DNA of 64,000 bases from Diplonema papillatum (lineage: Eukaryota; Euglenozoa; Diplonemea; Diplonemida; Diplonemidae): the NCBI GenBank assembly GCA_030068145.1, contig JAPJBO010000785.1, positions 1 through 64,000 of the forward strand, written 5' to 3'. Positions within the stretch are counted from its first letter, which is position 1. The number at the start of each line of letters is the position of its first letter. The notes below the pieces were generated by a model. That model did no database searches. It had not been told where the DNA came from and saw nothing but the letters and a program-made list of their open reading frames with translations. Position numbers and translations under genes: made by a program. Below, in pieces: positions 2,932 through 64,000 of the stretch.

Positions 2932-3770
2932 TCAGCAGCACAGCCTCTGCGAGATCTGGAGGAGTTCTCGCACATGGCTCAACTCCGCCATCGGAAGATA
3001 CCGGAGCAGGGCCGACTCCGATGAGTGGCCCGAAAACTGCCGAATCTCGTTGAGGCCCACTCCTCCCCGCAGTAGCTCCGTTAACGCGCCCCTTCGCAGG
3101 GAATGGCACGACAGCTCCGGATTCTCCCGACGCAGCGCCCGTCCCACGCTTCCGAAGGTCGTCGGAAAGAGCTTCTCTCTTGCACACCCCGCCATCGCCC
3201 TCAGCTCCGCCGTCTCCCGCGCCGACAGGGCTATCGCCGACAGGGCCCCCATGTGAAATGGATCCGACTTCGTGATCCACCATGAGATCTTCGCACCCCC
3301 CGGAGTGAACGTCACGTCCTGAGGGCGCAGACGAACTACGTCGCCTACTCTCGCTCCCGACCTCCATGCCACCAGGACGGCCATCGCCACTGCCCGATCC
3401 GTCGACCGACCCACAACAGCGTGAACCTCGGCGCTCGTCGCCGGAACCGCCTGTTTCGCCGGTTTGTTCGCACCTAAACGCCGCAAGGCCCGACGGAGGT
3501 CCTTTATGACGATCGATCCCTGAAGATCGTTGCCAACGCGGCGTTCCGCTGACACCAACGAGTTGACGTAGGTCAGGGCAGACGGAATCGAAATGTCCCC
3601 CCGACGCAACAGCCTCGCGATGAACAGCAGCAACGCAGTCGGCGTCTCCGTCGGTGACAGAACGTCGAGCATGCGCCGAAACTGCAGGAACCTGCGGTGA
3701 ACAGATTCCATACCCCGCCAAGTCGAAGGAGCGAGAGCCGCCTGCATCAGCTCCCTCGCGTCCCCCATCA
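2932..3770 (-). CDS. Tyrosine recombinase of DIRS-like element 1
   Basis: The frame stays open upstream to 4470, but the recognisable recombinase lies here. It has the catalytic Arg region (WRSGARVGDVVRLRP near 3350), the HxxR box (CHSLRRGAL near 3100), the second His region (FSGHSSESAL near 3020), and a likely Tyr nucleophile in LLRYLP near 2990. It would integrate circular element DNA without target duplication. It lies upstream of the RT and overlaps its frame. Treated as a fossil. Confidence 0.75.
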
Positions 3771-11455: not shown

Positions 11456-12166
11456 GAACACAGGAAACAAACACACAACTTCGAAGGGGGGGGGGGGGGG
11501 GGGTCGTTGTATAATGGTTTAGCTTGAAGGGTGTTGGAAAGGTTGAAAAAGGTTTTGGGGGTCACCGTCGGTTTGTGTTTTTATTTTTTTCTGTATATTT
11601 TTTTTGGGGGGTAATTATTTTTTCGGGGGTTCGCGTAACCCTTCTTTTCCGGAAGATAACGTTATCTTTTCTTTTCTCTCTGGCGCTCTTTTTCTCTCTA
11701 TCTCTCTCTTTGGCTAGCAAAGCGACTATTGCGACCGACACCACGACCACACCCGTAATGAATGTGATCAAGGGCCCCCCACGTTCTACATGTTGAGCAG
11801 GGGTTGCCATGTAGCCCGTACCGGTCTAAGCCTTCATTGCAGCTTCCATAAGCACCCCCGTTGGGACGGGTCCGACGGTCCGTTAGTCATCAGCGACATC
11901 GGGCGGGAAAAAGTAAATAAAAAGAAAGGGGAAAAATGGGGGTGTGGGTGGATAAGCTCGTGGTAGGTTGTTCGGAAATAAGTACAACCTCAAACTACGC
12001 CTAGCACAGGGCCAGGCGGCATATACGTGCCTTCATCCTCTCATGTTAGTGTGCGTTCACTCGTACAGACACTTCGAGTTTTTCCCGTTAGTCAGGGTAA
12101 ACGGGTGCGGAGTGAAATATAGACCAGCCAGCAATCAAGAATCCGATGAGGCTCAAACGACGCGGA
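11456..12166. other. Region downstream of the RT-USP gene
   Basis: Contains a poly-G run (about 11486-11504), T-rich sequence, and a 45-bp block (TTCTACATGTTGAGCAGGGG near 11790) that recurs near 34530 and partly at 33890. It probably includes the 3' untranslated region of the minus-strand gene. No gene seen. Confidence 0.45.
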
Positions 12167-15100
12167 TCAGAATCTCACACCCGCGAGGTGGCAACGTCTC
12201 TCATGCGCGCGGAGTCCCCTCAGACCTTGGAACGTCTGGCCATCCTTCGTGCATTCGACGGAGCAGTGTTGACATCGCAGCACCGGGGAACCTGTTAACT
12301 GCTGTTCAAACAACTGACCATGCGGTGTCAGACATTGGGAGTCCGGCAAGGGCGGGCAGGGTGGCGAATTACCAAAGGGGCAGAAGGAGTCAGGTGATCC
12401 TTCCGACTGCCGGCTCATCAAATTACCGGCTGAACCTGGGGGTGCAGGCAAGTCGGGTAGCCGATCCTGAGTGGGAAGCACCATGGAGGGTGACGGGGCA
12501 CGGACAGTCATGTCGTGGGCATTCCGGGGGATCCGGACAAAGGCCGCGAGGTAAACGTCACCCCACGGAATGTCGTCGACAGAGGTGACGTGCAGGTCGT
12601 CGAAGAGGATCCACCCCGTGTCTTGCGCAACGTACGTGACGTAGTGCCCGCTAGCCGTATCCTCCCCCATGTGCACCACGACGGCTGCGAGGCGTAGCAG
12701 ATGGTCCGGCGGTCCGAAGAAGGGGGGCAGTTTCACGTCATTCTGGCGCCTGGCACCGTTTCTCGTGTAGATGCCAAACTGCATCAGAACACATTCAGCT
12801 GTCAGACGGAGATCCATGCTTTCAACCACCGTACCTACAGCCTTGCAGTCGCATACTCTCTCCGGATTCACAAACCCGTGCACGTGGAGAGAGTCTTCCA
12901 GCTTCCTTCCGCAAGGAATTTGCAAACATTGCATTACCTGACTGCTGGAAGAAGTGCGTCCACATGCACTGCATCGTACTGAGCTGGTCCAGCCGTTCTC
13001 CAAGCATGTTACGAAGAGTTGGTAGCCCGGGCAGGGGGTCCCCGTTTCGTCCGGACCCAGCGTCGCACTAGTCGCGCTGAGTATCGCTACCAGAGCTTCG
13101 TGCGCATCGTGCTGCCGTGCATCGCAGAAGTTTGCGAACATGCTCAGGATGGCTTGGACACCCATTCTCCGACAATCCCGGCTACGCTGGTCACCACTGT
13201 CGCGAGAGCTTGACAGCATGGCAAAGTAAGCCAGGAAGTCCCCGAGAAATCCACGGCAGTTGGGGAGGTCCTGCGCAAGGCTCCAGTACATCTCTCTGAT
13301 CGGCCCAACCCGTAGCAGGAGCTGCAGCACCGCACCAAAGAAGCACGTGTTCCCCAGATTCGGGAGGCCGGCGGGGCCAAACAGCGTCGGATCATGCCTC
13401 ACGGAAGGCGGGTGTGTACAAACGTCTGATCGGTAGCACGTGGATGGAGGGGCAACTGTTAGAACCGGTTTGTGGACATTCGAGCGGCGTCGCTTTGAAG
13501 CCCGTTGTTCGTCCTCTTCAGCCTTTCGCTTGTGGCCTTTCCGCGTGGACTCACGGGGGGCGGTCGTGTCAGCCTGTCGGGTCGGTGCTTCGGTGGGCGG
13601 TGATCGGGGGGCGTCATCTTCAGCTTCCGGGACAGGTTGGGGGCGGCCATTGTATTTCACGAAGGGTCTTTCAGCCAGAAGGCGCTCGATCGCAAGGTCC
13701 ATCGCGGCCGGCTCTGGCAGTGATAGAGTGCGTTCCACCTCGTGAATGAGCCAGAAGAAGTGCCTCCGCACCTTCCCGCAATGCTCGCCAAATTTGGCCT
13801 CTGGGTATGTGTCCAGGAGCCATTTGCGGAATCCACTCTTCAAAACGCTTTTCCGGTAACCACGCCGCATGAGTTTCAAGACCGTGTTGTTCATTTCGGT
13901 CTTGAAATCATATATGTTGTTGGCGATCCTACCGTTGCGAACGAGGGCCCCAATGAGGATGCTCGAACCGAAGTTTGACGGGGCCGTAGACAGGACTGAC
14001 GTGTACGCGAGGGGGCGGTACGGGTAGGCTTTCGCCTTGTCCAAGACCGACAGTCGCATGTATCGCCTTCCAGACGCGCCGGAGACCTCATGTCGTATCC
14101 GTATGCCAAGGAAAGTCGCATCCCCTACGCATGCATTCGTCTGCTTGTACCCCATGCTGTAGATGGACTCGGGAGGGGGTTTCGTCCCGAAACAGAGCAG
14201 GTCATCTATAAAACGGCGCGTCATGCTGAGGAGTGTAGCCCGCCGGATGTCCCTTTCAGCCAGGAGTCTCATCATGTACCTCTTCTCCTTTGCGTAGCAG
14301 AAGAGATTGGCAATGTCTGGGGAGGCGTTAGCGCCCATCGGGATGCCCAATATTTGCCGCATGAGGATGCCGTTCACCAGTACGTACGTGTTCGCCAGGC
14401 AGAAAGCGAGGAGGGCCTTGAGGTCGTGTGCAGAATATGCTGCCTGCTGTGAGCTCAGATCCGTCAACAGCATGAACGCAAAACAACGTTTCTTCTTCTG
14501 CGGCCCATGTTGGCTCTTCGGTCGTACTAGGACCAGTTCATCAACCCGAACGCCGAGCCGTTCGGCCTCCGCTGCAAAGGCTTCGTCGATGGTACCAGCG
14601 ATTTCCTCCAGCAGTTCCTCGAGTCCCAGCTGGTCGTACATGGTCGTGAAATCCCATGTACCCGCGACCAGGCCCGAGAGCTCGTCAACATGCGTCTTCA
14701 GAAAGAAGGCGGTGTCGTCACTGGACTCCGTGATCCAGAAGAATCTAAACCCGGTCGCGTTGAATCGGTCGTTGTCCTCCCTCCGTAGGATCTCCATGAC
14801 TGATTTCAACAGACCCGTTAGATCCAGCTGTGCATCCGTCGTCGATGAAAATGTTGCATCGGGGCGGCGTGTTTCGCGTTCAGGAAAAGTCTCCCCCGGG
14901 CCCACAGTGTTTTTGCGGGAGACCCCGGCGATGTACCGCATGGTTATCACCTCCTTGTGTAGTTTCAAGGTGCCATAAAGGTAGGGGAGGGTGTTCGTGG
15001 GGCTCAGCCCTTTTTGCTCCAGGTACGTCTTGTGATCTGCTACGACTTCTTCCGGTGTCTTCTCGCTCGGGGCGTAGTTCACGCTGTGGTTAACCTTCGT

Positions 15101-16666
15101 GTACAGATCCTGGTTGTAGAATCTTCTACACACGAACCCGAAGTCGTGAGAACTCTTGTCGACCGGGAGAATTACGAGGTCCTTGTGCAGTTCTCGCAGG
15201 CGTCGACGCGATGTGGTTGTCACCTCCGGTTCGGCACCAATACGCGTCACGCCGACGGTCGACATTATCTTCTCCCGCAGCAGTCTGGCGAAACTAGGCG
15301 GGGAGTCATTAAAGTACCCCTCGACGAACAAAGCCACCGCCCTATCCACTTCAGTACAAATAGCTTCGTCGCCGCCATCCGGGCGGAACTTGCGACCTTT
15401 GTCGAAGAGCGTAACTAGTTCGCTGCAGGTGTCGAGGAGGTGTGCTTGCCCACACGCATGGCCTTGAATGTGGTATCCTTGCAGCAGATACTTTTGACAC
15501 GGGCAGTCTTCGGGCGGAGGGGCCGGCTCCGGGGTCGTCTGTCTTGAAACCTCTGTGAAGTTGGAAAGGAGGACCCCGAGAGGGGGGTTGAGTGACGTAG
15601 AGACTCTCGTGTTGATGAATTCCGTGGGGTCGGCGAGGAGAGCACGGAGTTGGGCATCATGGCGGAAGATAGCGGCAAGTTTGCGCTCGTCCAGCAGCTT
15701 GCTGACCTGTTGGATGCAGAACCACGGGGTTCGTGCCGCACTTTTCTTCTTTTTCGCGAGGTGGTTTATCTCACCAAGCCGTGCAGTGAGCAGCTCGTCC
15801 AGGATCCCCACCTTCGGATGCTGCAGGTGTTCGATCATGAACCGCCGAACCCACGTCCGAACCCTGTACACCCGGCTCTTCATCCACGGGTTCACGTCAT
15901 ACTCCCGCAGTGCGTCCTCCTCAAGTCCGAAGAGGTGCTGCAACTGCCTACGGATGCCGAAGAATCTACCCCGTCCCTGGTTGATCCGTATCTCTTCGCC
16001 ATCCACGTGAACCCACGGCTCCCCACGCTCGCGTGAAGCTCCTTGGGCGTCCCGTTCGTTGCCCGGTGCCTTTGTGAACGATGGTGCAGTGCGGGGCTTT
16101 TTCCTCCGTCTGTTCAAATCGCTGGCTGTCCTCACCGTGTTGAACATCGGCTGCAGCATCGCGATGAACGCCATCTCTATCGGCTCCGACACCCTGTCGA
16201 ACGAACTCCCGTCGGAGTAAAACGCACCAGGGATGTCGTAGAGCACGAAAGCGTACGGCGGGGAAGGGAGGTTCTGTAAGTGACGCTTGAACTGGTCCTG
16301 TTTGCTGTTCCTGCCAGACCAGTGTTTGGCGACCCTTTCCTGCATCGTCTTGCCTGTCTTGCCGATATATAACAGGTTAGCATGCGAGTCCACGAGTCCA
16401 TAGATGAGACCCGAAGCCTTGTAGTTGCTCGGGTTCTCCGGCTGCTGGAGCTTGAGCGTCGCGTATGTGTGTGCAAGCTTCCTCCCGTATCTTCTCAGGA
16501 ACCGGCTCGTGAATTCCACGCCTTGCTCCTTCCATTTCGACCAGTCGATCTGCGTCGTCTTTTCCGTCTTCGTACGAACGCAGTCGGTTTGGAAGAAGGG
16601 TGCGAGGAATGGTTTCGCAAACTCCGGGCGCCGCCGCATATCCGCGTCGGCAGGCGGTACACGCAT
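12167..16666 (-). CDS. Penelope-like reverse transcriptase with N-terminal GIY-YIG nuclease and C-terminal ubiquitin-specific protease
   Basis: A single uninterrupted protein of 1499 residues from the ATG at 16666; the frame is open to 16918 without an earlier ATG. In order: GIY-YIG nuclease at about 85-180 (GLIYGLV at 86-92, YIGKTG at 100-105, Glu near 161); CPC motif at 388-390 within a Cys/His cluster; Penelope-type RT at about 490-960 (LPVDKS, PYLYGTLKLHK, motif A WDFTTMYDQL with Asp672, motif B GIPMGANASPDIAN, motif C FIDD at 819-822); a basic linker; USP domain with Cys box LPNLGNTCFFGAV (Cys1108), QHDAHE at 1185-1190, paired cysteines, and GHY with His1341 and Asp1357; then a C2H2 finger (Cys1465, Cys1468, His1488, His1493). 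Nuclease-first order and the CxC motif place it with Naiad/Chlamys-type elements. The protease is extra. All catalytic residues are present. It would nick DNA, reverse-transcribe, and possibly remove ubiquitin; the last is inference. Confidence 0.88.
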   Translation of the reverse strand: MRVPPADADMRRRPEFAKPFLAPFFQTDCVRTKTEKTTQIDWSKWKEQGVEFTSRFLRRYGRKLAHTYATLKLQQPENPSNYKASGLIYGLVDSHANLLYIGKTGKTMQERVAKHWSGRNSKQDQFKRHLQNLPSPPYAFVLYDIPGAFYSDGSSFDRVSEPIEMAFIAMLQPMFNTVRTASDLNRRRKKPRTAPSFTKAPGNERDAQGASRERGEPWVHVDGEEIRINQGRGRFFGIRRQLQHLFGLEEDALREYDVNPWMKSRVYRVRTWVRRFMIEHLQHPKVGILDELLTARLGEINHLAKKKKSAARTPWFCIQQVSKLLDERKLAAIFRHDAQLRALLADPTEFINTRVSTSLNPPLGVLLSNFTEVSRQTTPEPAPPPEDCPCQKYLLQGYHIQGHACGQAHLLDTCSELVTLFDKGRKFRPDGGDEAICTEVDRAVALFVEGYFNDSPPSFARLLREKIMSTVGVTRIGAEPEVTTTSRRRLRELHKDLVILPVDKSSHDFGFVCRRFYNQDLYTKVNHSVNYAPSEKTPEEVVADHKTYLEQKGLSPTNTLPYLYGTLKLHKEVITMRYIAGVSRKNTVGPGETFPERETRRPDATFSSTTDAQLDLTGLLKSVMEILRREDNDRFNATGFRFFWITESSDDTAFFLKTHVDELSGLVAGTWDFTTMYDQLGLEELLEEIAGTIDEAFAAEAERLGVRVDELVLVRPKSQHGPQKKKRCFAFMLLTDLSSQQAAYSAHDLKALLAFCLANTYVLVNGILMRQILGIPMGANASPDIANLFCYAKEKRYMMRLLAERDIRRATLLSMTRRFIDDLLCFGTKPPPESIYSMGYKQTNACVGDATFLGIRIRHEVSGASGRRYMRLSVLDKAKAYPYRPLAYTSVLSTAPSNFGSSILIGALVRNGRIANNIYDFKTEMNNTVLKLMRRGYRKSVLKSGFRKWLLDTYPEAKFGEHCGKVRRHFFWLIHEVERTLSLPEPAAMDLAIERLLAERPFVKYNGRPQPVPEAEDDAPRSPPTEAPTRQADTTAPRESTRKGHKRKAEEDEQRASKRRRSNVHKPVLTVAPPSTCYRSDVCTHPPSVRHDPTLFGPAGLPNLGNTCFFGAVLQLLLRVGPIREMYWSLAQDLPNCRGFLGDFLAYFAMLSSSRDSGDQRSRDCRRMGVQAILSMFANFCDARQHDAHEALVAILSATSATLGPDETGTPCPGYQLFVTCLENGWTSSVRCSACGRTSSSSQVMQCLQIPCGRKLEDSLHVHGFVNPERVCDCKAVGTVVESMDLRLTAECVLMQFGIYTRNGARRQNDVKLPPFFGPPDHLLRLAAVVVHMGEDTASGHYVTYVAQDTGWILFDDLHVTSVDDIPWGDVYLAAFVRIPRNAHDMTVRAPSPSMVLPTQDRLPDLPAPPGSAGNLMSRQSEGSPDSFCPFGNSPPCPPLPDSQCLTPHGQLFEQQLTGSPVLRCQHCSVECTKDGQTFQGLRGLRAHERRCHLAGVRF

Positions 16667-17077
16667 CTTGACCCGTTCCGGTAGGACCTCGCGCGTTTGT
16701 GGACCGGGTCGTCGCAAAACCGGACACGCGGAACAGTCGGGGGGTTTTTTTTGGGGGGACGGTGGGTCGTCGTGGAGGAAGGCCAACGAGTCGGAGGGAA
16801 GATCTATGACGTAACGTAACGTAACGGAAGGGGTGATAGGGAGGGGCGGGCGGATGGGGCGGCTTGTTCGTCTGGACGGTCGGCGGTGCAATACACGGGG
16901 GGGTAGGGAATTCACGCTTCTAAACTACTGCTACTGGTTTTTTTGCCAGGCTCAGGGCCCGACGCGTCTTTTGTCGATTTTCTGGGGTTTCGGTTGTACA
17001 ATGGAACAGGTCCCGATTGGTAGTGACGAGACCGTACGGGGGCAGGATGGAGTTCACCTAGACTCTGCCCGGTCTCG
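16667..17077. promoter_or_regulatory. Divergent promoter region between the RT-USP and hAT genes
   Basis: The two genes point away from each other and their open frames begin only about 160 bases apart (16918 and 17078; 410 bases between ATGs). Both promoters must lie here. GTAACGTAACGTAACG occurs near 16812. No TATA box is evident. Confidence 0.45.
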
Positions 17078-17416: not shown

Positions 17417-19480
17417 GTGGTCAAAAGACCGTCTAAGCTGCAGCTCCGAAAGGGGCTGGCGAAGGGCGCAGCGAAGGTTGCAGTGGCCGGCAGCAAACGC
17501 CACAATCTGCTGATTACAGCCGTAAAAAGGATGAACAAGCTCACAGACGCAGAAAAGGAAGGCTTGGAGCTCAGGAAGGTGAAGGACCTCCCTTCATCTT
17601 GGAAGTCGTTAGCACTCAGAGACCCCAACGTCACGTTGCAGGAAGAAGTGATCTGGTGCGGTTCATGCCAAAAGAAAATCAACTACCTCGACAGCACCAC
17701 GTGCAAGAAGCATCACACCTACGAAGAACACAAGAAGAGGCACACACTTCTGGTGGCACAAAAAAAGGCTGGCGCGGTTGTTGTGGACGTTGACGCCGGT
17801 ACCGCAAACGTCACTGAAAAGGGGACCGCCGTACAGGACTTCACGAGGTTGGTTGCGATGGCCGGCATGAAGGCAGGGGCAGTGGCTTGCATGCGTGTCT
17901 TTTTCAGAAAGCATGTCTCCCCGGCAATTCCCCACACGAGGACGCTCATGGATATGAGTCGGGGGTGCGATGCGAAGACGCAGATGCAGAAGGATCTAAT
18001 AGAGACGATCGGGACATCGTTTGGCATTGGGTTTGATGGATCCATCATCGACGAGCTCAAGGAGCAGGCATTGGCAGTGGTCGCATACGACAAGGGACGA
18101 GCATACTTGCTGGGACTTCGCGTTGGAGAGGACGGTGAAGCCTTGGACACAACCTCTCAGTCGGAGTTTGTTGCCAACGTCCTCAAGGACTACGGGATCA
18201 AGATACCCAACGTCGCTTACATCGTCGTTGACAAGGCGTCGACGAACGTGGTCGCCCTTCAGGACTGGGAGGGCATTGTGATATACTGCTTCGGTCACCA
18301 TCTGAAAAATGCCATCAAGCCGTGGTTCAAGCTGAGTCACCCGAACGCCCACGACACACTGCGTCTCTTCAGCAACGCTTTCTACAAAGCACCCACGCGT
18401 GAGGTTCGGTGGGTGCAGGCGCAGAAGGCAGTCGTGACCCATGATGTCGATGCAGCCGCTACAGAAGACGAGATTCCGATCGCCCAAAAGCTGACTGCCC
18501 TGCTGTCGTTGCACGAGGATGGCGAAGACGTCGAAGCTGACATCCTTGAGTGTCTTGGTGAAGGAGATGGAGACATGTTGGAGCGTGCAAAGGAGAGGTT
18601 GACGCAAGCTCAAAATGAGAACGTGCCAGTGGACTTGACACCAGAACCACAACGCGAGCAACGTCCCAGCCCGGAATACCCCCCCTCTATCAACGACACG
18701 AGGTGGGATTCCACCTTCAGATGCCTTGCCCACCTGGTCCCCCGCCTGCAGTCTCTTCCAGCATTTCTTGAGAAAGAACTGAAAAGGAACACCACACCCG
18801 AGAGTATCCAACTACTTGCGGGGAAGTTCAGCGATGCAGACGTCACAGAAACGTGTGCAGCTCTTGTAACGGCCTTGGAAGCCATGGAACCCGTCATGCC
18901 CCTTTTCAGTTTTGCTGCTGATCCACCCGCGCGCAAGCCCCTTGCAGCGGAACTCCCCGCCATGGTTGCAAAAGCCATGAAGGCCGTTGGCAACGATCTC
19001 TCCGCCGTCCTGAAAGAGATGTGGAGCACCTATCTTTCCCGGGACATCTTCAAATCCATGTGGCTCTTTTGCCCTGAGAAGCTGGGTACGAAGAAGGCAG
19101 CGGGAATTGCCATCCCCTCAGTGGAGTCAATCACGGACACATTCAAGGGCGTGTTTCACCGCGACGCCAAAACCCAACTGGGCGAGTACCTGAAGGTTTC
19201 GATCAGCGTCCTGACGAAATGGAAGGATGCCGAAGCATTCTGGACTTCGAAGAAGCAGGTATGGCCGGATCTCTCAGCCGTAGCTCTCACGCTGTTGTAC
19301 CTGCCCGTCAGTGTAACGCGGGTGGACGCCGTGTTCAGCCAGTTGGGGGCAATCTCAAATGAGAGAGGGGGGAGAATCAACCCTTCTGCATACGAGACGA
19401 CAGCCCTTTACTACTGCAACAAAGACATCTCTGGGAGGTTCAAGGACTTCGACGACGAACATTCGCTGTCTCGGGTGTGA
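17417..19480 (+). CDS. hAT-family transposase
   Basis: An open frame of 687 codons continuous in phase with 17078-17362 except for one TGA. The first ATG after that stop is near 17531. Counting from 17417: a BED-like finger (WCGSCQKK at 80-87, then HH near 99-100 and H105/H109); RNase H-like core with Asp207 (GFDGSIIDEL) and Asp272 (IVVDKAST); CFGHHLKNA at 291-299, the family C-x2-H motif; C-terminal dimerisation region (about 607-660) with FWTSKKQVWPDL, ALTLLYLPVSVTRVDAVFSQ. The family excises and inserts DNA, leaving 8-bp duplications. It probably acts on the inverted ends at 11223 and 20680. Function is uncertain because of the upstream stop. Confidence 0.75.
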   Translation: MVKRPSKLQLRKGLAKGAAKVAVAGSKRHNLLITAVKRMNKLTDAEKEGLELRKVKDLPSSWKSLALRDPNVTLQEEVIWCGSCQKKINYLDSTTCKKHHTYEEHKKRHTLLVAQKKAGAVVVDVDAGTANVTEKGTAVQDFTRLVAMAGMKAGAVACMRVFFRKHVSPAIPHTRTLMDMSRGCDAKTQMQKDLIETIGTSFGIGFDGSIIDELKEQALAVVAYDKGRAYLLGLRVGEDGEALDTTSQSEFVANVLKDYGIKIPNVAYIVVDKASTNVVALQDWEGIVIYCFGHHLKNAIKPWFKLSHPNAHDTLRLFSNAFYKAPTREVRWVQAQKAVVTHDVDAAATEDEIPIAQKLTALLSLHEDGEDVEADILECLGEGDGDMLERAKERLTQAQNENVPVDLTPEPQREQRPSPEYPPSINDTRWDSTFRCLAHLVPRLQSLPAFLEKELKRNTTPESIQLLAGKFSDADVTETCAALVTALEAMEPVMPLFSFAADPPARKPLAAELPAMVAKAMKAVGNDLSAVLKEMWSTYLSRDIFKSMWLFCPEKLGTKKAAGIAIPSVESITDTFKGVFHRDAKTQLGEYLKVSISVLTKWKDAEAFWTSKKQVWPDLSAVALTLLYLPVSVTRVDAVFSQLGAISNERGGRINPSAYETTALYYCNKDISGRFKDFDDEHSLSRV

Positions 19481-30768: not shown

Positions 30769-31740
30769 CTACGGCTCGTCGGCTACTTCAGGCAAAAAGG
30801 GTGCCGAGTAGAAGTTGGCGTGCTGGGTCAGGAAGTCATGGTAGCACACTTGCTCGATGGTCATCCGCTGAGCCTCGTCACGGACCAAGATCCGCTTGAA
30901 GAAGTCTGTGCACTCGGGGGACAGCCGCCTGTCGGGGAGCTCCACGTCCACGTGCGCGATAGCTGCAATGAGATCCTGCTGGTCTTCGTACTCCGCGAAC
31001 GGCGTGTGTCCGAACGTCATCTCGTACGCCAGAACTCCGAGGGCCCACACGTCGGCCTTCTCCCCCTGGAGCTTGCCGCCGAGGAACTCCGGGGCAAGGT
31101 AATCCAGCGTGCCGCAAAGGGTCCCCCTCCTCTCCTGCGGTGTCAGCAGCACGCCGGCTGACCCAAAATCGGCGAGTTTCACGTTCCGGTTGCTGTCGAT
31201 CAGGCAGTTTTCGAGCTTCAAGTCCCTGTGGATCACCACTGGGCTGTGCTTGTGAAGGTAAGCGAGGGCAAGAGCCACCTGGCGGACGTAGAAGGCAACT
31301 GTGGCCTCTGGCAGTTGTCCGATGGTCCTGTGGAAGTAATGCGCCATATCACCGTGCTCGCAGTATTCGAGTACCAGGTATTTGTACTCAGCATCCTCGA
31401 AGACGCTGTGCAGTCTGACGATGAAGGGGTGCTTCAGGCGGAGGTGGACAGTGGTCTCCGTCTTCCAGCACCGCTTCGCCGCCGCGGCGGCCTCGGCCGT
31501 CATGTCGAGTAGCGCCAGCTTGTCCAACATCTTCACCGCCACGATCCGCCCGGTCTCCCGCTCGCGCGCTTTGTACACGACGGCCATGTTCGTCCTTCCG
31601 ATCTCCTCCACGAGTTCGAGCTGCTCTATGCCCGTCACCGTCGGCAGGGGCCGGTCGTCCTCCAACTCCACCACCCGCTTCTGCACGGGCAGGCCGCTGG
31701 CGTCCCTTCTCACTGTGTACACACGCTTCGCCGCCGACAT
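30769..31740 (-). CDS. Aurora-like serine/threonine protein kinase
   Basis: An intronless 323-residue kinase from ATG at 31740. The N-lobe has VAVK with Lys70 and Glu95 in helix C; the glycine loop is degenerate (IGRTNMAVVYKA, only the first Gly kept). The catalytic loop is HRDLKLEN (171-178), DFG at 191-193, activation segment RRGTLCGTLDYLAPE (205-218) with Thr207 in the position Aurora kinases phosphorylate, then WALGVLAYEMTFGHTPF. Aurora kinases govern mitotic spindle and chromosome segregation; GTLDYLAPE and the C-lobe favour Aurora over polo kinases. It has a very short N-terminal region (about 40 residues). It is surrounded by broken copies on both sides. The loop may reduce activity, but Lys, Asp and DFG are intact. 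Confidence 0.85.
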   Translation of the reverse strand: MSAAKRVYTVRRDASGLPVQKRVVELEDDRPLPTVTGIEQLELVEEIGRTNMAVVYKARERETGRIVAVKMLDKLALLDMTAEAAAAAKRCWKTETTVHLRLKHPFIVRLHSVFEDAEYKYLVLEYCEHGDMAHYFHRTIGQLPEATVAFYVRQVALALAYLHKHSPVVIHRDLKLENCLIDSNRNVKLADFGSAGVLLTPQERRGTLCGTLDYLAPEFLGGKLQGEKADVWALGVLAYEMTFGHTPFAEYEDQQDLIAAIAHVDVELPDRRLSPECTDFFKRILVRDEAQRMTIEQVCYHDFLTQHANFYSAPFLPEVADEP

Positions 31741-41228: not shown

Positions 41229-41431
41229 GCTCCCCTACTTTGATGGTCTCGTATATTGGTATGCGGTGTCTTATGTGTGGCATGCGTGTGTGTCGTTGTT
41301 CCCTGTTGCCGATTATACGCTTGTTTGCACTCACCTTTTTACCGTGTGTTTCGGACCCGGTTTAACGTGGTGCCTTCCTGCGCACGTGACGTCGTGAGTG
41401 CGTGTGTGTGCATGAAGGAGAATTAACCTGC
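41229..41431. other. Intron spacer
   Basis: G/T-rich sequence between the partial exon and the 28S fragment. No feature. Confidence 0.4.
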
Positions 41432-41568
41432 ATGGTAGCATCACGGCACTGTCCGATCGAACAACCGTAGATACCAGGGACTGGAAACGGGAGTTCCTCT
41501 CGTACTACCCCGTATTGCTGTCGGAATGCGCTGGCCCGATGGGCTCTCTCTCCATCAGTACGGTAAAG

Positions 41569-41599
<31 letters not shown>

Positions 41600-41658
41600 C
41601 TACGTTCCCTGTTAGTGGGTGAGTAATCCAACCCTTAGACAATTCTGCGTGTCTAGGT

Positions 41659-41690
<32 letters not shown>

Positions 41691-41830
41691 AACGTCGCTA
41701 TGAACGCTTGGCTGCCACAAGCCAGTTATCCCTGTGGTAATTTTTCTGTCACCTCCGGCTTCATCCCTTGAACATGAAGCGAGACCAAAGGATCGTTAGG
41801 CCTGAAGATCGTGCATCGAGCAAGTTGAGG
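41432..41830 (-). rRNA. 28S (LSU) rRNA fragment containing the sarcin-ricin loop
   Basis: The minus strand carries conserved LSU landmarks in order: CCACAGGGATAACTGGCTTG, GATCCTTCGATGTCGGCTC, GGGTTTAGACCGTCGTGAGA, AGTACGAGAGGAACTCCCG (sarcin-ricin loop) and TGCCGTGATGCTACC. About 400 bases of the 3' domain; upstream and downstream rRNA is missing, so this is an isolated fragment in an intron. Conservation of the landmarks suggests recent capture or an assembly join. Confidence 0.9.
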
Positions 41831-54222: not shown

Positions 54223-55700
54223 TCAGGTTCTTTCTCTGGTGTCCACATCCGCCACCATTTTTGCGCTTGCCACCAGGTGAGTCTCGACCTGTGCCTCCCC
54301 AATGGCCCTGTGCATGTCAACCAGTAGCCGATTTTCTACGGGATGCGGTGACGCCAACTTACGGAACCGGCTCTCTGCGGTGCTGTTATCGTGGAAAACG
54401 CTAAACAGCACCCAGCCGTTCGTGATTCTCCTGGCAACCCGCAGCCCAATCACGGCACATGCGAGCTCTCGGCGCCTGATCGGGACTGGAGGCGAAAGCT
54501 GAGCTAGCTTCATCGTCCATTTCCAGCTGCTTCGTACCAGAACGCATCTCTCCACCGGGTCCAGAATGGCAATGGCACCCCCCTCATCTGAGGCGTCCGT
54601 CCAGACGTGGACGTTGCGCGTTGGGTGCTGAATCCTTCTGGGCTTACAATGCAACAGCCATGCCCTTCCTCTGTTAACCTCCTCTACGATGGCTCGGGGG
54701 AGTCTGATCACAGTGTCCCAGTCCTTGACTGTCGTGCATACGCTGCTTAGCTGTCGATTTGCCCGCAGCAATTCCGGATACACCGCTGCAGGACTCCGCA
54801 TGACGAATAAACCCCATCTGAGACATCCAATGAACTGAGCCAGAGCCCTGTACGACGTAATCTTTTGTCCGAATAGAGCGTTCACCGACTCCGCCCATTG
54901 CCGTGGGATCGAAAGCGTCTTTTCCGTGAGATTGAGTTCTATCCCATCGAAAGTTCCCGATGCCGAGGGTTCTGTCACTTTGTCTTCCCTAACGACAATG
55001 CGGGCCTCCCGGAGGGTCTGCCTCAATCGCTGTTCCTGAGCCCTAACATCGTCAACTCCTTCGCCTCCAAGAGCAATGTCGTCGTAAATTGCCAAGCTCG
55101 AGGAGTCCACGCCTGCACCGCGCCGCACACCCAGTGTCGTCAGCTGCGCAATGGTGGGCGACCGCGATATGCCCGGCACTGCGATGGTAAATAAGTAATA
55201 TTTTCCGTCGCGTGCCCTAAAACCCAGGTTCTCCATCAGAGCCGCTGACACAGGCAGCTGATAAAAATACCCGAGGAGGTCGAGTGTCATGAACACCTCA
55301 AACTCGAGTGTAAACGCCTCGATGTCAGCGAGTGACGGCGTCTTCGGGGAAAGAACTGGGGCTGTTCGGAGGTCAAACGGCCGGCCATCTATGAGAAGCC
55401 GCGTCTCTTGTTTATTTTTCTTCGGGATCTTGAACACACAGAGGGTGATTCGTGGCCTTCGAGCGGCGCGCTTCACCACACCACTTTCGAGCATCGCCTG
55501 CAAATCAGCGTCGGATATATCCCGACTTGGTAGAGCTTGATGTCTTTCTGTAGACGTGAGAAGTGGCTCCTGCGTGCACTGCCTGAGGACAAAAATCTCC
55601 TGTGGTGTCAACCCCTGCTCAACGACTTCGTAATTCGCCCTGGAGGAGGGCAGCTTATCCAACGGCCCCACGGCTCCTCGAAACGGCGTCTTAGGCAGGG
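54223..55700 (-). CDS. RT-RNase H of DIRS-like element 2
   Basis: The frame is open upstream to 57672 and overlaps the recombinase frame. The RT part has LCVFKIPKKNKQETRLLIDG, MTLDLLGYFYQLPV (motif A) and SSLAIYDDIALGG (motif C, YDD). RNase H begins with VHVWTDASDEGGAIAI near 54610. Upstream, the open frame crosses a 48-bp tandem repeat (56100-56600; PQGN/PQSN modules). Fossil entry; family function as for element 1. Confidence 0.8.
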
Positions 55701-56099
55701 AACGCATGTACGTCTTTGTAGTCAGAGTGGCGAGCGCCAGTTCTTGCTTCCTTATTTCGCTTGTGCACTCGCTTCGTTCTTTTTCGACAGTCTCGGCAAT
55801 ATTGAATTCTCCCTCAAAAGCAGCTTCGCTTTGCTCGCCTAAGTCACCACACAGGAGGCTGCTCGCCCAGTTGAGCTCGTCGTCCACGATGTTTGAAATG
55901 TCAGGGTGGTTCTGCCTTTTCCAATCTTTGAGGGGATGCTCCTTCTGCAGGTTCTGGGCATACGCCGGGCAATAAGAACTGACTTTCGATGTTCCTTTAA
56001 CCTTCAGTGCCCCTTGGTCTTGCAGCCTTCTTTGTTCTGGCACTCTGCCTTCTCGCTGCTGCGAGGTATGGGCATCGCTCAGCTTGGCGTGGCGGTCAT

Positions 56100-56600
56100 C
56101 CTGTTGCCCTGCGAGGCAACGGCCCTTGCTCTGCGGAACAGCACTCTGTTTGCCTGGCGAGGCAGCGCTCCTGTTGCTCTGCGGAGCAGAACTCCCGTTA
56201 CCTGGGGAGACGGCGGTTTTGTCGCTCTGCGGAGCTGCATCCTTGTTGCCCTGCGGGGCGGCGGCCTTGTTGCTCTGCGGAGCTGTCTTGTCGTTGCCCT
56301 GCGGGGTGGCGGTCTTGTTGCTCTGCGGAGCTGCTTTCTCGTTGCCCTGCGGGGCAGCGGCCCTGTTGCTCTGCGGAGCTGCCTTGTCATAGCCCTGCGG
56401 GGCGGCGGTCTTGTTGCTCTGCGGAGCTGCTTTCTCGTTGCCCTGCGGGGCAGTGGCCCTGTTGCTCTGCGGAGCTGCCTTCTCGTCGCCCTGCGGGGCT
56501 GTGGCCCTGTTCTGCGGAGCGGCCTTCTCGTTGCCTTGCGAGGCGGCGGCCCGCGTTGTGTGGCTTTCTCGTTGCCCTGCGAGGCGGCGTCCTTGTCGCC
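56100..56600. repeat. 48-bp in-frame tandem repeat in DIRS-like element 2
   Basis: CTGTTGCTCTGCGGAGCTG recurs every 48 bases (for example near 56323, 56371, 56419) about nine times. The unit is 16 codons, so length changes keep phase. Confidence 0.9.
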
Positions 56601-56642
56601 CTGCACAGCGGACTTGTTGTTGCTCTGCGGACCAGGTGCCAC

Positions 56643-57545
56643 TTACTCGCGTAACGCCACATGCAGCCTTGCAGATACCCTTGCCGTTCTCGTGTGGTCT
56701 GGTGTGACGCAGCCCCACAGGTATCTCCTCAGAGTGGCGATGGACGTGTGCCGTGCAATCAACAGGAGCTCGTCCCATTGCGCCCCGCTCTTCGCCAGAT
56801 GCTGCAACGCGCCCCGTTTCCAGCTGTGTTCCGCGCAACCTGGAACCAACTTTCTTGCCAGGGCTAGGAGGTGCCTGATCGTGGCCCTCTGGAACGGCTG
56901 CTTCAGGCCTATCCACCTCTTCACTTTCTCGCGTTGCAAGGGCGGCAGCTGGTAGAGCACTTCTACCTCGCGTAGCCTCAATTTCGCCTCTTTGGTGGTC
57001 CACCAAGCTATCCGTAGCACCCCTCGCGCTGTCAGCGTGACATCCTCTGGCTTGATCTCCAGAAGATCGGCCATCCGCAGGGCGCAGCCCCACATAAGAG
57101 CCGCCGCAGCTACTACTTCCATGCTCTTGTCTGCAGCCGCGTGCATCACGCTTCGCGCTTCCTCGAGCGTCAGAGGGTGTGCGTGATCTGGCATTTCCCG
57201 CCTTTCGAGGCGCCGCTTCAGCAGCGCCCGCTTCGTCTCCTTCATCTCTGCGGCCGAAACGCCCATCTTCGGGCCCAAAGCGCTGAGGTAAGACTCGACG
57301 CTGGTCGTCCGCATGTTGCCCTTCCTGGGGCGGCCTCGCTTTCCGCTTTCCCGTGCGACGAACTTCGCCAACTGCGCTTCGCTCATCCCACCGTCCACCA
57401 TGGCAGCCGCAAAAGCCTTCAACTTGAAAACTGCTGGTGCCTGCTGCAGGTCTGTCGCTTCCGCAAACTTCGCAACGGTCGCTGCCATCGACGCCCGCTG
57501 CGCCGCCGTCCCTTCGGTCGTTGCTGCCGCTTCGAACGTCTCCAC
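56643..57545 (-). CDS. Tyrosine recombinase of DIRS-like element 2
   Basis: About 300 codons. Catalytic Arg region WGCALRMADLLEIKPEDV, then HSWKRGALQHL (H-x2-R box), IARHTSIATLRRYLWG (second His and candidate Tyr). The N-terminal part is helical with a basic RGRPRKGN. It sits between gag and RT, overlapping the RT frame. Fossil entry. Confidence 0.8.
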   Translation of the reverse strand: METFEAAATTEGTAAQRASMAATVAKFAEATDLQQAPAVFKLKAFAAAMVDGGMSEAQLAKFVARESGKRGRPRKGNMRTTSVESYLSALGPKMGVSAAEMKETKRALLKRRLERREMPDHAHPLTLEEARSVMHAAADKSMEVVAAAALMWGCALRMADLLEIKPEDVTLTARGVLRIAWWTTKEAKLRLREVEVLYQLPPLQREKVKRWIGLKQPFQRATIRHLLALARKLVPGCAEHSWKRGALQHLAKSGAQWDELLLIARHTSIATLRRYLWGCVTPDHTRTARVSARLHVALRE

Positions 57546-57575
57546 TTTTTCCTCCCAGCTGTACCGGGAGGAGAG

Positions 57576-58490
57576 TCAATGGTTTTTTGGCGTTTTCTGC
57601 GGAACCTGCTGGTGGACATGCCTGAATCGGCAGTCCCTTCGGAAGCATCGTCCACTTCGAAAATTCTGACACACAGGCCGGGGTCGGTCGGTCGTCTGAC
57701 GGGTTTGCTGCTTGTATGTCGTTGCAAAGCGCCGCCTCGCCTCGCGCTGGCGCTCGGGAAGCCGGTTCGTCTCCTGGACGGTCCGCATAACCCTTCCGGC
57801 CTTCGGGTCTCTCGTGTCGTATATGGCCTGTTGTTGTTCCAGCTCATCGAACATGTGGACAAGTTTCAAGACCCAGAGGCTCGTCCCTGTTCCGGTTCCA
57901 CGCATTCTGAGATGCTCTCTGATCCTCAGCACCGTGTCGTGGCGCTGCTCCTGCAGGCGCTGGTTCTCTTTGAATCGATAGCACCGGGCGATAGCCGACT
58001 CAAGGAGTAGGAGTTTTCCCGCTCCGATGGGCCCTTCCCTCCAGTACCCGGCGTCCAAAAGAGCAAAATCGTCCTCCTTTTCCTCGTCAGACACGGCGTT
58101 GTCCAACGGCGGAAGCAACTGGTCCAGGATCTCCACTGCTTCCTTCTCGTCTGAGATCAGCGCCAGTTCCCGGAGCGCATCTGAGTCGACCCGACTCCAA
58201 AAGCCCGGTTGCGCCTCTTCATAAGCGGATACGAGAACGTCCGCCCTGTCCGAGGGCAGGCTTGGAAATACCTGCTCCGGTCTCACCATAACATCCCTAC
58301 GTCGCCTTTTCGCAGCAGAATTCTCCAGCTCGCCCTCTAAGAGGCGTTTCTCCGCCGTCTGCACCTTCGCCTCACGGTCCATAAGCTCCTTCTCTTTCTC
58401 GGCAGCTTTTCTCTCCCTCTCCAATAAAGTACAGAAACTGTAGCTTTTAAATCGTTGGACTTCAAAAAATGTTTCTGACCTGCGGGTCAA
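57576..58490 (-). CDS. Gag-like protein of DIRS-like element 2
   Basis: About 300 codons just inside A1. It begins with a Glu/Lys-rich coiled coil, followed by a helical core (GAGKLLLLESAIARCYRFKE) and a C-terminal CCCH finger (CQNFRSGRCFRRDCRFRH) that would bind RNA. Fossil entry. Confidence 0.7.
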   Translation of the reverse strand: MTRRSETFFEVQRFKSYSFCTLLERERKAAEKEKELMDREAKVQTAEKRLLEGELENSAAKRRRRDVMVRPEQVFPSLPSDRADVLVSAYEEAQPGFWSRVDSDALRELALISDEKEAVEILDQLLPPLDNAVSDEEKEDDFALLDAGYWREGPIGAGKLLLLESAIARCYRFKENQRLQEQRHDTVLRIREHLRMRGTGTGTSLWVLKLVHMFDELEQQQAIYDTRDPKAGRVMRTVQETNRLPERQREARRRFATTYKQQTRQTTDRPRPVCQNFRSGRCFRRDCRFRHVHQQVPQKTPKNH

Positions 58491-61531: not shown

Positions 61532-62620
61532 CTGCTGCCTTTCTCCGAAGCTGTGGAATTCTCGGAAAACCAAACACTGCAGTCAACGACCTTCCCCACT
61601 TCGAAATGGAAAGGCTTGCAAAGACTGATGTTCATTGCAAGCTTCGATTTCCACCTTAAGCGCTTCAAACAAACTTCGTCTGTGTTTTGATTTTCTGTTT
61701 ATGTTTCTTTAAATTGAAAGCTCCTATTCTATCTGCTGCCTTCTGTTGGTGCTCTTCCTGCTGCTGCCTTACCGCTGCTCCCTTGCTGCTGCTGCCTTGC
61801 CGCTGCTGCCTTGCCGCTGCTGCCTTGCTGCTGCTGCCTTGCTTGCCCCTGCTGCCTTGCTGCTGCCTTGCTCCTGCTCTTGCTGCTGTTCTTGGTGCTA
61901 CTCTTGCTCCTGCTGCTCCTGCTGCCTTTCTCCGAAGCTGTGGAATTCTCGGAAAACCAAACACTGCAGTCAACGACCTTCCCCACTTCGAAATGGAAAG
62001 GCTTGCAAAGACTGATGTTCATTGCAAGCTTCGATTTCCACCTTAAGCGCTTCAAACAAACTTCGTCTGTGTTTTGATTTTCTGTTTATGTTTCTTTAAA
62101 TTGAAAGCTCCTATTCTGTCTGCTGCCTTCTGTTGGTGCTCTTCCTGCTGCTGCCTTACCGCTGCTCCCTTGCTGCTGCTGCCTTGCCGCTGCTGCCTTG
62201 CTGCTGCTGCCTTGCTTGCCCCTGCTGCCTTGCTGCTGCTGCCTTGCCGCTGTTGCCTTGCCGCTCCTGTCTTCTTGCTGCTGCTGCCTTGCTGATGCTG
62301 CCTTGCTACTGCTGCTTTGCTTTGCTGCTGTCTTGCTTCTGCCGCTGCCTTGCCGCTGTTGCCTTGCCGCTGCTGTCTTGCTGCTGCTGTCTTGCTGCTG
62401 CTTCCTAGCTGCTGCTTCCTTGCCGCTGCTGTCTTGCTGCTGCTACTCTTGCTGTTGCTGCTCCTGCTGCTCTGCTGCCTTTCTCCAAAGCTGTGGAATT
62501 CTCGCAAAACCAAACACTGTGGTCAACGACCTTCCCCACTTCGAAATGGAAAGGCTTGCAAAGGCTGATGTTCATCGCAAGCTTCGTTTTCCAACTTAAG
62601 CGCTTGAAACAAACTTCGTC
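61532..62620. repeat. Three large repeat units with CTG-rich spacers
   Basis: A conserved block (GGAATTCTCGGAAAACCAAA to AAACAAACTTCGTCTGTG, about 140 bp, longer in the first two units) occurs at about 61555-61690, 61943-62075 and 62493-62622. Between them lie CTGCTGCTGCCTTG-type arrays of different length. The third block is the most diverged. Confidence 0.9.
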
Positions 62621-62975
62621 TGTTGTTGCTGCTGCTGCCTTGCCGCTGCCTTGCTGCTACTGCCTTGCTGCCTTGTTGCTGCTGCCTTGCTGCTGCTGCT
62701 GCTGCTGCAGCCTTGTTGCTGCCTTTCCGCTGCTATGTTGCTGCTGCTGCTTCCCTGCCGCTGCTGCCTTGCTGCTGCTGCTGCCTTGCTGCTGCTGCTG
62801 CCTTGCTGCTGCTGCTGCCTTGCTGCTGCTGCTGCCTTGTTGCTGCTCCTGCCTAGCTGCAGCTGCTGCTGCTGCTGCCTTGTTGCTGCTGCCTTGGCGC
62901 TGCTGTGTTGCTGCTCCTGCTTCCCTGCCGCTGCTGCCTTGCTGCTGCTGCTGCCTCTTGCTGCTGCTGCTGCCT

Positions 62976-63010
<35 letters not shown>

Positions 63011-64000
63011 TGCTGCTGCCTTGCCGCTGCTGTGTTGCTGCTCCTGCTTCCCTGCCGCTGCTGCCTTGCTGCTGCTGCTGCCTCTTGCTGCTGCTGCTGC
63101 CTTGTTGCTGCTGCTGCTGCTGCTGCTGCCTTGTTGCTGCTGCCTTGCCGCTGCTGTGTTGCTGCTCCTGCTTCCCTGCCGCTGCTGCCTTGCTGCTGCT
63201 GCTGCCTTGCTGGTGCTGCCTTGCTGCTGCTGTCCTGCTGCCTGCTGCTGCCTTGCCTGCTGCTGCCTTGCTGCTGCTGCCTTGCTGCTGCTGCCTTGCT
63301 GATGCTGCCTTGCTGCTGCTGTCCTGCTGCCGCTGCAGCCTTGCTGCTGCTGTCCCGCTGCTGCTGCTCTTGCTGCTGCTGCATTGCTGTTGCTGCATTG
63401 CCGCGGCGGCCTTGCTGCTGCTGCTGCTGCCTTGCTGCTGCTGCCTTACGGCGGCTGCCTTGCTGATACCTTGCTGCTGGTGTCTTGCCGCTGCTGTCTT
63501 GCTTCTGCTGCTGCCTTGCCGCGGCTGCCTTGCTGCTACTGCTGCCTTGCCGCTGCTGCCTTGCTGATGCTGCCTTGCTGCTGCTGTCCTGCTGCTGCTG
63601 CTGCCTTGCCGCTGCAGTCTTGCTTCTGCTGCTGCCTTGCTGCTCCTGCTGCCTTGCTGCTGCTGCCTTGCCGCGGCTGCCTTGCTGCTGCTGCTGCCTT
63701 GCTGCTGCTGCCTTACCGCGGCTGCCTTGCTGATGCCGCCTTGCCGCTGCTATCGAACTGCTGCCGCCTTGCCGCTGTTGCCTTGCCGATGCTGTCTTGC
63801 TGCCGGTGTCTTGCCGCTGCTGTCTTGCTTCTGCTGCTGCCTTGCCGCCGCTGCCTTGTTGCTGCTGTCTTGCTTCTGCTCCTGCCTTGCTGGTGCTGCC
63901 TTGCCGCGGCTGCCTTGCTGCTACTGCTGCCTTGCCGTTGCTGCCTTGCTGCTGCTGCCTTGCTGCTGCTGCCTTGCTGCTCCTGCTGCCTTGCTGCTGA
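62621..64000. repeat. CTGCTGCCTTG minisatellite running to the window end
   Basis: Units of 12-15 bases (CTGCTGCTGCCTTG and variants). All frames stay open, giving Leu/Cys/Pro or Gln/Ser/Ala runs; these are not genes. Larger repeats of about 130 bp with CTCCTGCTTCCCTGCCG occur at 62900-63190. Confidence 0.95.

Follow-up and report, generated by a model that had tools for sequence, protein, structure and literature searches.

A complete-looking ubiquitin-specific protease domain in the polymerase protein of a Penelope-like retroelement from Diplonema papillatum

The window analysed here is a 64,000-nucleotide stretch of the Diplonema papillatum genome (contig JAPJBO010000785.1, assembly GCA_030068145.1). 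Its minus strand carries a retroelement with a single open reading frame (ORF) of 1499 amino acids (12167 to 16666), which joins a GIY-YIG nuclease domain, a CxC motif, a telomerase-type reverse transcriptase (RT) and a ubiquitin-specific protease (USP, family C19). A one-protein retroelement of this composition had been proposed in the initial annotation, and Pfam searches, alignments and the predicted fold support it. At the level of sequence, the presence of a complete-looking USP within a retroelement polymerase is confirmed. By most features tested, the element is a Penelope-like element (PLE). Related elements encode deubiquitinases of other kinds at the same place, which suggests that such elements were repeatedly armed, with two or three unrelated enzymes, against tagging by host ubiquitin.

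Open frame and domain architecture

The minus-strand frame is open from a GTG at 16915 to the stop at 12167 (1582 codons), and the probable ATG at 16666 delimits the 1499-residue protein. The closest database protein, GenBank P0001, shares the start methionine, differs from the window protein at few positions and bears the name 'putative ubiquitin carboxyl-terminal hydrolase 16 [Diplonema papillatum]'. The uninterrupted frame with GIY-YIG, CPC, FIDD and USP boxes that had been read by eye was recovered with every motif located.

The GIY-YIG domain (residues 86-176, 16139 to 16411, minus strand, like all features of the protein) was delimited by Pfam and an alignment of six N-termini, with the GIY motif at 16411 and the YIG motif at 16375. 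Its match to PF01541 reaches 22.4 bits, marginally below the Pfam cut-off of 22.6, and the cut-off is passed in relatives (23.0 bits in the 67%-identical P0003 and 23.8 bits in the more distant P0013). The tyrosines of GIY and YIG and the Arg, Glu and Asn columns are invariant in the six N-termini; these Tyr, Arg, Glu and Asn positions have a catalytic role in GIY-YIG nucleases. The CPC motif (15497 to 15505) is an invariant Cys-x-Cys in the alignments, as judged across the aligned sequences.

The RT core (residues 483-937, 13856 to 15220) contains the motifs DK..HD, LKLHK, DFTTMYD (D-F..MY at 14653), GIPMG (14347) and FIDD (14218), of which the last three represent motifs A, B and C. With the E threshold raised to 1, Pfam still gave the window protein no RVT_1 match, and homologues show weak RVT_1 matches that all stay below the cut-off. 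The predicted fold of the window RT matches telomerase, in a model of the protein beyond its N-terminal part. The RT is called from its motifs, the weak matches of its homologues and the telomerase-like predicted fold. The end of the RT thumb and a Pro/Lys/Arg-rich linker follow (13373 to 13855), the linker being mostly predicted with low local confidence (predicted local distance difference test, pLDDT, <50).

The USP domain (residues 1100-1365, 12572 to 13369) matches Pfam UCH (PF00443) with E=1.5e-20 and 74.4 bits (cut-off 23.9) over profile positions 2-240 of 254. A profile search had been suggested for all three domains; it places the USP far above its cut-off, leaves GIY-YIG 0.2 bits short and misses the RT. 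The Cys box (13360), the QHDAHE box (13114), the GHY His box (12649) and the FDD Asp (12607) were all located, and the predicted catalytic triad consists of Cys1108, His1341 and Asp1356. Two cysteine pairs are present (CSAC at residue 1232, CDC at 1272), and the predicted structure of the domain is a C19 fold. The protein ends in a zinc finger (residues 1465-1493, 12188 to 12274) found by a pattern scan. This finger had been described as C2H2, but its spacing (C-x2-C..H-x3-C) makes it CCHC. Of 18 proteins scanned, 6 have this pattern, the window protein among them.

Copies, integrity and target of the element

The genome searched comprised 271 Mb in 2910 contigs; the published assembly is given as about 280 Mb (PMC10161547, available text). 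The ORF DNA yielded 37 matches, among them the window's own, and its full 4500 bases are covered by at least 18 copies at 100% (rounded), one at 99% and one at 92%; all copy numbers given here are lower bounds. At the protein level, 15 of the 32 listed matches cover residues 1-1582 without a stop. Six more belong to a subfamily at 85-86% identity; their frames measure 1528-1590 amino acids, and their matches reach residue 1581 and so span the USP. A genome scan for UCH scored 149 matches of 935 candidates, and 112 of the 149 show the pattern of the element (profile end 240, span 774-801 bp; counted from the table of matches and not individually confirmed). The search for further genomic copies of the fusion, which the initial annotation had advised, thus returned full-length copies.

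In an alignment with 27 other loci, the window copy extends from 17140 to 11504 (minus strand) and has the 3' end ...ACAACGA. Copies L011, L012, L015 and L027 match one another at 99.9-100% across about 2056 bases upstream of the point where the window copy begins, so the latter is 5'-truncated. Truncation points vary among copies. In the long 5' region, a clear coding frame was not evident on inspection by eye. In L013 and L010, the element 3' end is followed by A, C6 and an identical stretch (239 bases from the 3' motif) into the L015-type 5' region, and L011 has the identical 3'-to-5' junction as far as the contig end. These copies are therefore head-to-tail tandems, with a unit of about 7.9 kb as read from L013 and L015. 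Tandem copies are described as a habit of PLEs (PMC11167929, available text). Internal deletions occur in otherwise young copies (about 163 bp in L009, 47 bp in L019 and 100 bp in L027). Taken as a whole, the data support an element that is multicopy and recent.

A copy that lacks the USP with a clean break at the linker had been named as evidence that would speak against the fusion. The lone fetched copy without the USP side, L025, does break at the linker. Up to that point it is 99.3-99.4% identical to the USP-bearing L024, and beyond it continues into unrelated sequence without an element 3' end; L025 is therefore regarded as a broken L024-type copy, and the idea that USP-less copies are ancestral was rejected. 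In the gene model P0002 (1146 amino acids), the UCH match stops after its first 31 residues, which may reflect either a deletion or a wrongly placed intron. The other concern raised there, that the junction might be an assembly join, is met by many copies with differing flanks and truncations.

An oligo-C tract of 18 bases (element sense; 11486 to 11503, minus strand) adjoins the 3' junction of the window copy and is the presumed target. All 22 recorded 3' ends read ACAACG(A), with a run of 5 to 29 C directly after it. These ends come from 21 of the 28 loci, L010 contributing two, and the remaining seven loci are without the searched 3' motif; tandem junctions account for three of the ends. 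At random window positions, C5 occurs at 0.24%. The flank repeat TTTGCACTAATAAA has the C tract without the element in three of five occurrences, all three in L022, and the flank repeat GGGTCGAGCTAAT in one of two, in L005. Because flank repeats bear it without the element, the C tract is more than an element tail. The L010 copy of the window's hAT-like flank runs 28 bases beyond the window junction point to a C26 tract. The repeat TTTTGGCATCG is at odds with a simple empty-site picture, as in L022 it has a G tract instead of a C tract where two elements have preceding C. C tracts are found on both sides of the element in L006, L014, L016, L017 and L020, where homopolymers are indistinguishable from target-site duplications; in L018, a C tract lies on the 5' side, the one side read. 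The flanking hAT-like transposase ORF (17417 to 19480, plus strand; PF05699 E=0.0013, 18.9 bits, below the cut-off of 21.4) places the window copy beside or inside another transposon.

The assignment to PLEs is based on several traits. GIY-YIG and RT lie within one ORF, the RT is related to telomerase according to its predicted structure, and tandem or partial-tandem units are present. No hammerhead ribozyme was matched by Rfam in the window or in L015; this ribozyme is described in several PLEs but is not universal, and was treated as non-essential. The Naiad/Chlamys-type arrangement, with an N-terminal nuclease and CxC ahead of the RT, is present in the window protein, and the element is a candidate member of that clade.

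A DIRS-like element lies between 1166 and 4470 of the window (minus strand), where an RT ORF (RVT_1 E=2.2e-10) overlaps one for a tyrosine recombinase (Phage_integrase E=8.9e-9). A 1149-amino-acid ORF at 54223-57672 (minus strand) is RT-like by eye, has no Pfam match and is overlapped by an ORF that looks recombinase-like. A probable host protein kinase gene (30769-31740, minus strand; Pkinase E=5.8e-64) lies amid these mobile elements. Frames at 62493-63466 are repeat-rich and open on both strands (Gln-rich and Leu-Ala-Cys-rich), and AT skew is extreme from 62 kb onward. Two 28S rRNA pieces (model positions 2825-2984 and 3022-3108) are found at 41431-41730 (minus strand); about 3600 such pieces are reported to be scattered in the Diplonema genome (PMC10161547, available text). 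Elsewhere in the genome, the gene models P0004, P0009, P0010, P0015, P0022 and P0023 join RT pieces to host domains (TOG-type, Mg/proton exchanger, kinesin, WD40, UNC93 and TPR), and probably represent elements in introns or mis-joined models.

Deubiquitinases in related elements

Protein searches for relatives listed 9, 16 and 37 matches, with about 8000 candidates scored in each. UCH was found above the cut-off in the Diplonema proteins P0003, P0014 and P0019, in the metagenomic or unnamed proteins P0007, P0008, P0026, P0028 and P0037, and in the EukProt protein P0027. P0027 has a record name that identifies it as part of a Trinity assembly, which suggests that the gene is transcribed; the prefix Rhum in this name presumably stands for Rhynchopus humris, another diplonemid. 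The USP fusion noted initially for a single copy thus recurs in other subfamilies and distant relatives, among them a EukProt transcript and metagenomic proteins. A Josephin domain follows the RT in P0018 (E=1.1e-10) and in P0029 (E=3e-5; 24.4 bits, below the cut-off of 26). P0033 has an OTU-like piece after the RT, with E=5.2e-4 and 21.0 bits for the piece alone (cut-off 23.3); the whole protein is unmatched at E up to 0.1 and a PDB sequence search returned no deubiquitinase, so that an OTU domain is rated as probable. Like the oligo-C target and the tandem units, these Josephin and probable OTU relatives go beyond the initial annotation. Among viral contigs, 43 pattern matches were obtained and none was confirmed as a relative.

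In an alignment of ten USPs including that of the window, the catalytic Cys and His are kept in 10/10 each. The triad Asp is replaced by Asn in P0008, P0026 and, after re-inspection of the alignment, P0007; Asn as third triad residue also occurs in cellular USPs. Between six lineages, identity is 16-27% for the USP and 32-46% for the RT. That the putative active site persists across such divergent lineages argues more strongly for function than do the within-genome selection values below.

Selection was estimated from the ratio of nonsynonymous to synonymous divergence (dN/dS) between the window copy and L023-L026, of which L024 has a deletion of 1 bp, L023 contains a stop, and L025 and L026 are partial. 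Against the 92%-identical L024, dS is 0.26 and overall dN/dS 0.14, with 0.07 for the RT, 0.07 for GIY-YIG, 0.22 for the USP, 0.25 for the linker and 0.40 for the tail. As L024 may have drifted after insertion, given its deletion, all of these values would be raised. For two other old copies, the corresponding values for USP and linker are 0.30 and 0.35 against L023, and 0.21 and 0.35 against L026. In the USP, dN lies far under dS (L024; site counts approximate, p=1.3e-12). The domain is thus under purifying constraint as judged from codon comparisons, although values from within one genome would by themselves fall short of proof that the enzyme is active.

The RT phylogeny comprised 20 rows (19 of 44 proteins and the window; fragments and near-duplicates excluded). 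Fifteen rows around the deubiquitinase-bearing elements are united with support 98/99, the Josephin pair groups with P0030 (100/99), and the OTU-like row adjoins a USP row (78/89). P0034, P0036, P0038 and P0039 are located outside and are without a detected deubiquitinase, the first three being short pieces that end near the RT and carry little information. The root is unsure because the outgroup P0044 forms a very long branch. USP and RT identity matrices correlate over nine rows (r=0.91, p=0.0006), an effect of close pairs only. The order of domains also differs, the USP coming after five fingers in P0007 and ahead of the finger in the window protein.

Proposed role of the deubiquitinase and known systems

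In related elements, the RT is followed by a USP, a Josephin domain or, probably, an OTU domain, an indication that selection has favoured deubiquitination as such. We slightly favour the view that these elements form a PLE clade with deubiquitinases of three unrelated folds, repeatedly acquired or swapped, as counter-defence for the RT/nuclease complex. For the window element itself, we give an even chance to an autonomous, recently active PLE whose polymerase protein includes a working C19 deubiquitinase acting in cis. The GIY-YIG domain would nick at an oligo-G/C tract. With the 3' end of the G strand as primer, the telomerase-like RT would copy the element RNA, and 5'-truncated copies would arise where synthesis is incomplete. 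Telomerase uses G-rich primers. The same is described for telomeric PLEs (PMC6431247, available text). The USP may then strip, in cis, ubiquitin placed by host ligases on the RT/nuclease protein, and so lengthen the nuclear life of the element complex. In human cells, TRIM41, aided by cGAS, ubiquitinates L1 ORF2p, which leads to its degradation and represses retrotransposition (PMC10716122, available text); by analogy, a deubiquitinase fused to RT and nuclease could offset ubiquitination of the TRIM41 type in cis.

Several results weigh against this interpretation. The initial annotation had suggested dN/dS over the USP as a check; the constraint found there is weaker than on the RT (0.22 vs 0.07, p=1.8e-4) and no stronger than on the linker (0.22 vs 0.25, p=0.86). 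No Pfam deubiquitinase was detected in P0011, nested among USP-bearing RTs, in P0030, which groups with the Josephin pair and looked Josephin-like by eye, or in P0039 and P0042, which have GIY-YIG and RT; given the last two, the enzyme is not needed for such elements per se. Monophyly of the ten USP-labelled rows is rejected on the RT tree (p about 3e-11); this set included P0002, and the free tree places P0011 and P0033 among USP rows. Over the six lineages, USP and RT distances are uncorrelated (r=-0.04, p=0.56), so a single ancient USP is not demonstrated. Judging by these distances, the USP either evolves very fast or was captured more than once.

A serious rival, which we regard as possible though not probable, is that the USP targets chromatin or repair factors at the nick (ubiquitinated histones, PCNA, Fanconi proteins), allowing target-primed synthesis to finish, with the C-terminal finger and the nuclease perhaps delivering it to the target. 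It is favoured by the DNA-acting modules of the protein and by the nearest folds of the USP model, which include the SAGA Ubp8 module, solved with a ubiquitinated nucleosome, and USP1, solved with FANCD2. It is unlikely that the USP serves as a decoy or trans modifier of host signalling (proteostasis, RNA silencing, DNA-damage sensing). The 112 element-pattern UCH matches would allow a large dosage, but the domain is fused to RT and nuclease rather than separately encoded, which favours cis or local action. The indistinguishable dN/dS of USP and linker, and the apparent loss or primary lack of a deubiquitinase in P0011 and P0030, would suit a passenger, i.e. a captured host fragment that is now a pseudo-enzyme or ubiquitin-binding module. 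We consider this highly improbable in view of the invariant Cys and His at 16-27% identity between lineages, the low dN relative to dS, and the Josephin and OTU-like domains after the RT in relatives. A host USP gene adjoining a retroelement fragment, as the GenBank name might imply, or an assembly join is ruled out for practical purposes by the 18 full-length copies, the differing flanks and truncations of those fetched, and the recurrence of the fusion in other subfamilies, a EukProt transcript and metagenomes.

PLEs are the retroelement class nearest telomerase. To our knowledge, little is known of how they survive under host control. An RT with its own deubiquitinase, present in many near-identical copies in a model diplonemid, offers a direct handle on whether ubiquitin limits retrotransposition. 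With Josephin as a second deubiquitinase fold and OTU as a probable third, the relatives would provide an uncommon example of a transposon lineage that captured one biochemical activity repeatedly; if true, ubiquitin would be a general conflict front between eukaryotes and telomerase-related retroelements. For databases, it is relevant that such ORFs carry the names of host ubiquitin hydrolases.

The element USP shares the C19 fold, the Cys-His-Asp triad and the zinc-ribbon cysteine pairs with cellular USPs (USP12/46, USP36, USP1), at about 19-25% identity to the USP12/46/1 rows across the aligned part, and differs from them in residing inside a retroelement protein. PDB sequence matches of individual element USPs gave no answer as to the cellular USP of origin. 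The Naiad/Chlamys elements, described by Craig and colleagues in 2021, reportedly have an N-terminal GIY-YIG, CxC before the RT, a telomerase-like RT and a simple-repeat target (CA repeats in Chlamys). All four features are shared; the window element adds the C19 deubiquitinase and the CCHC finger after the RT, and its target is an oligo-C tract.

Among the literature matches listed, none describes a PLE with USP or Josephin, the principal study of PLEs whose nuclease is N-terminal being outside their scope, and 'Penelope' occurs 0 times in the available main text of the Diplonema genome paper (PMC10161547). Canonical Penelope/Poseidon elements share the ORF with GIY-YIG and telomerase-like RT, tandem or partial-tandem copies and 5' truncation; in contrast to the window element, their nuclease is C-terminal, a hammerhead ribozyme is described, and no ubiquitin-type protease is mentioned in the available text (PMC11167929, PMC3846280). 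NeSL/Utopia non-LTR (long terminal repeat) elements resemble it in fusing the RT protein to a protease of the ubiquitin/SUMO system and in their target-specific families, and differ in the RT class, a restriction-like endonuclease and an N-terminal Ulp1-like cysteine protease instead of a USP (PMC4640811, available text). Helentrons with an OTU-like protease and Burro elements with ubiquitination-related domains are likewise mobile, the former being DNA transposons and the latter LTR elements, and the available text mentions neither a USP nor such a PLE (PMC6431247). The Ulp1-like protease of NeSL/Utopia and the OTU of Helentrons thus show that mobile elements do acquire proteases of the ubiquitin system.
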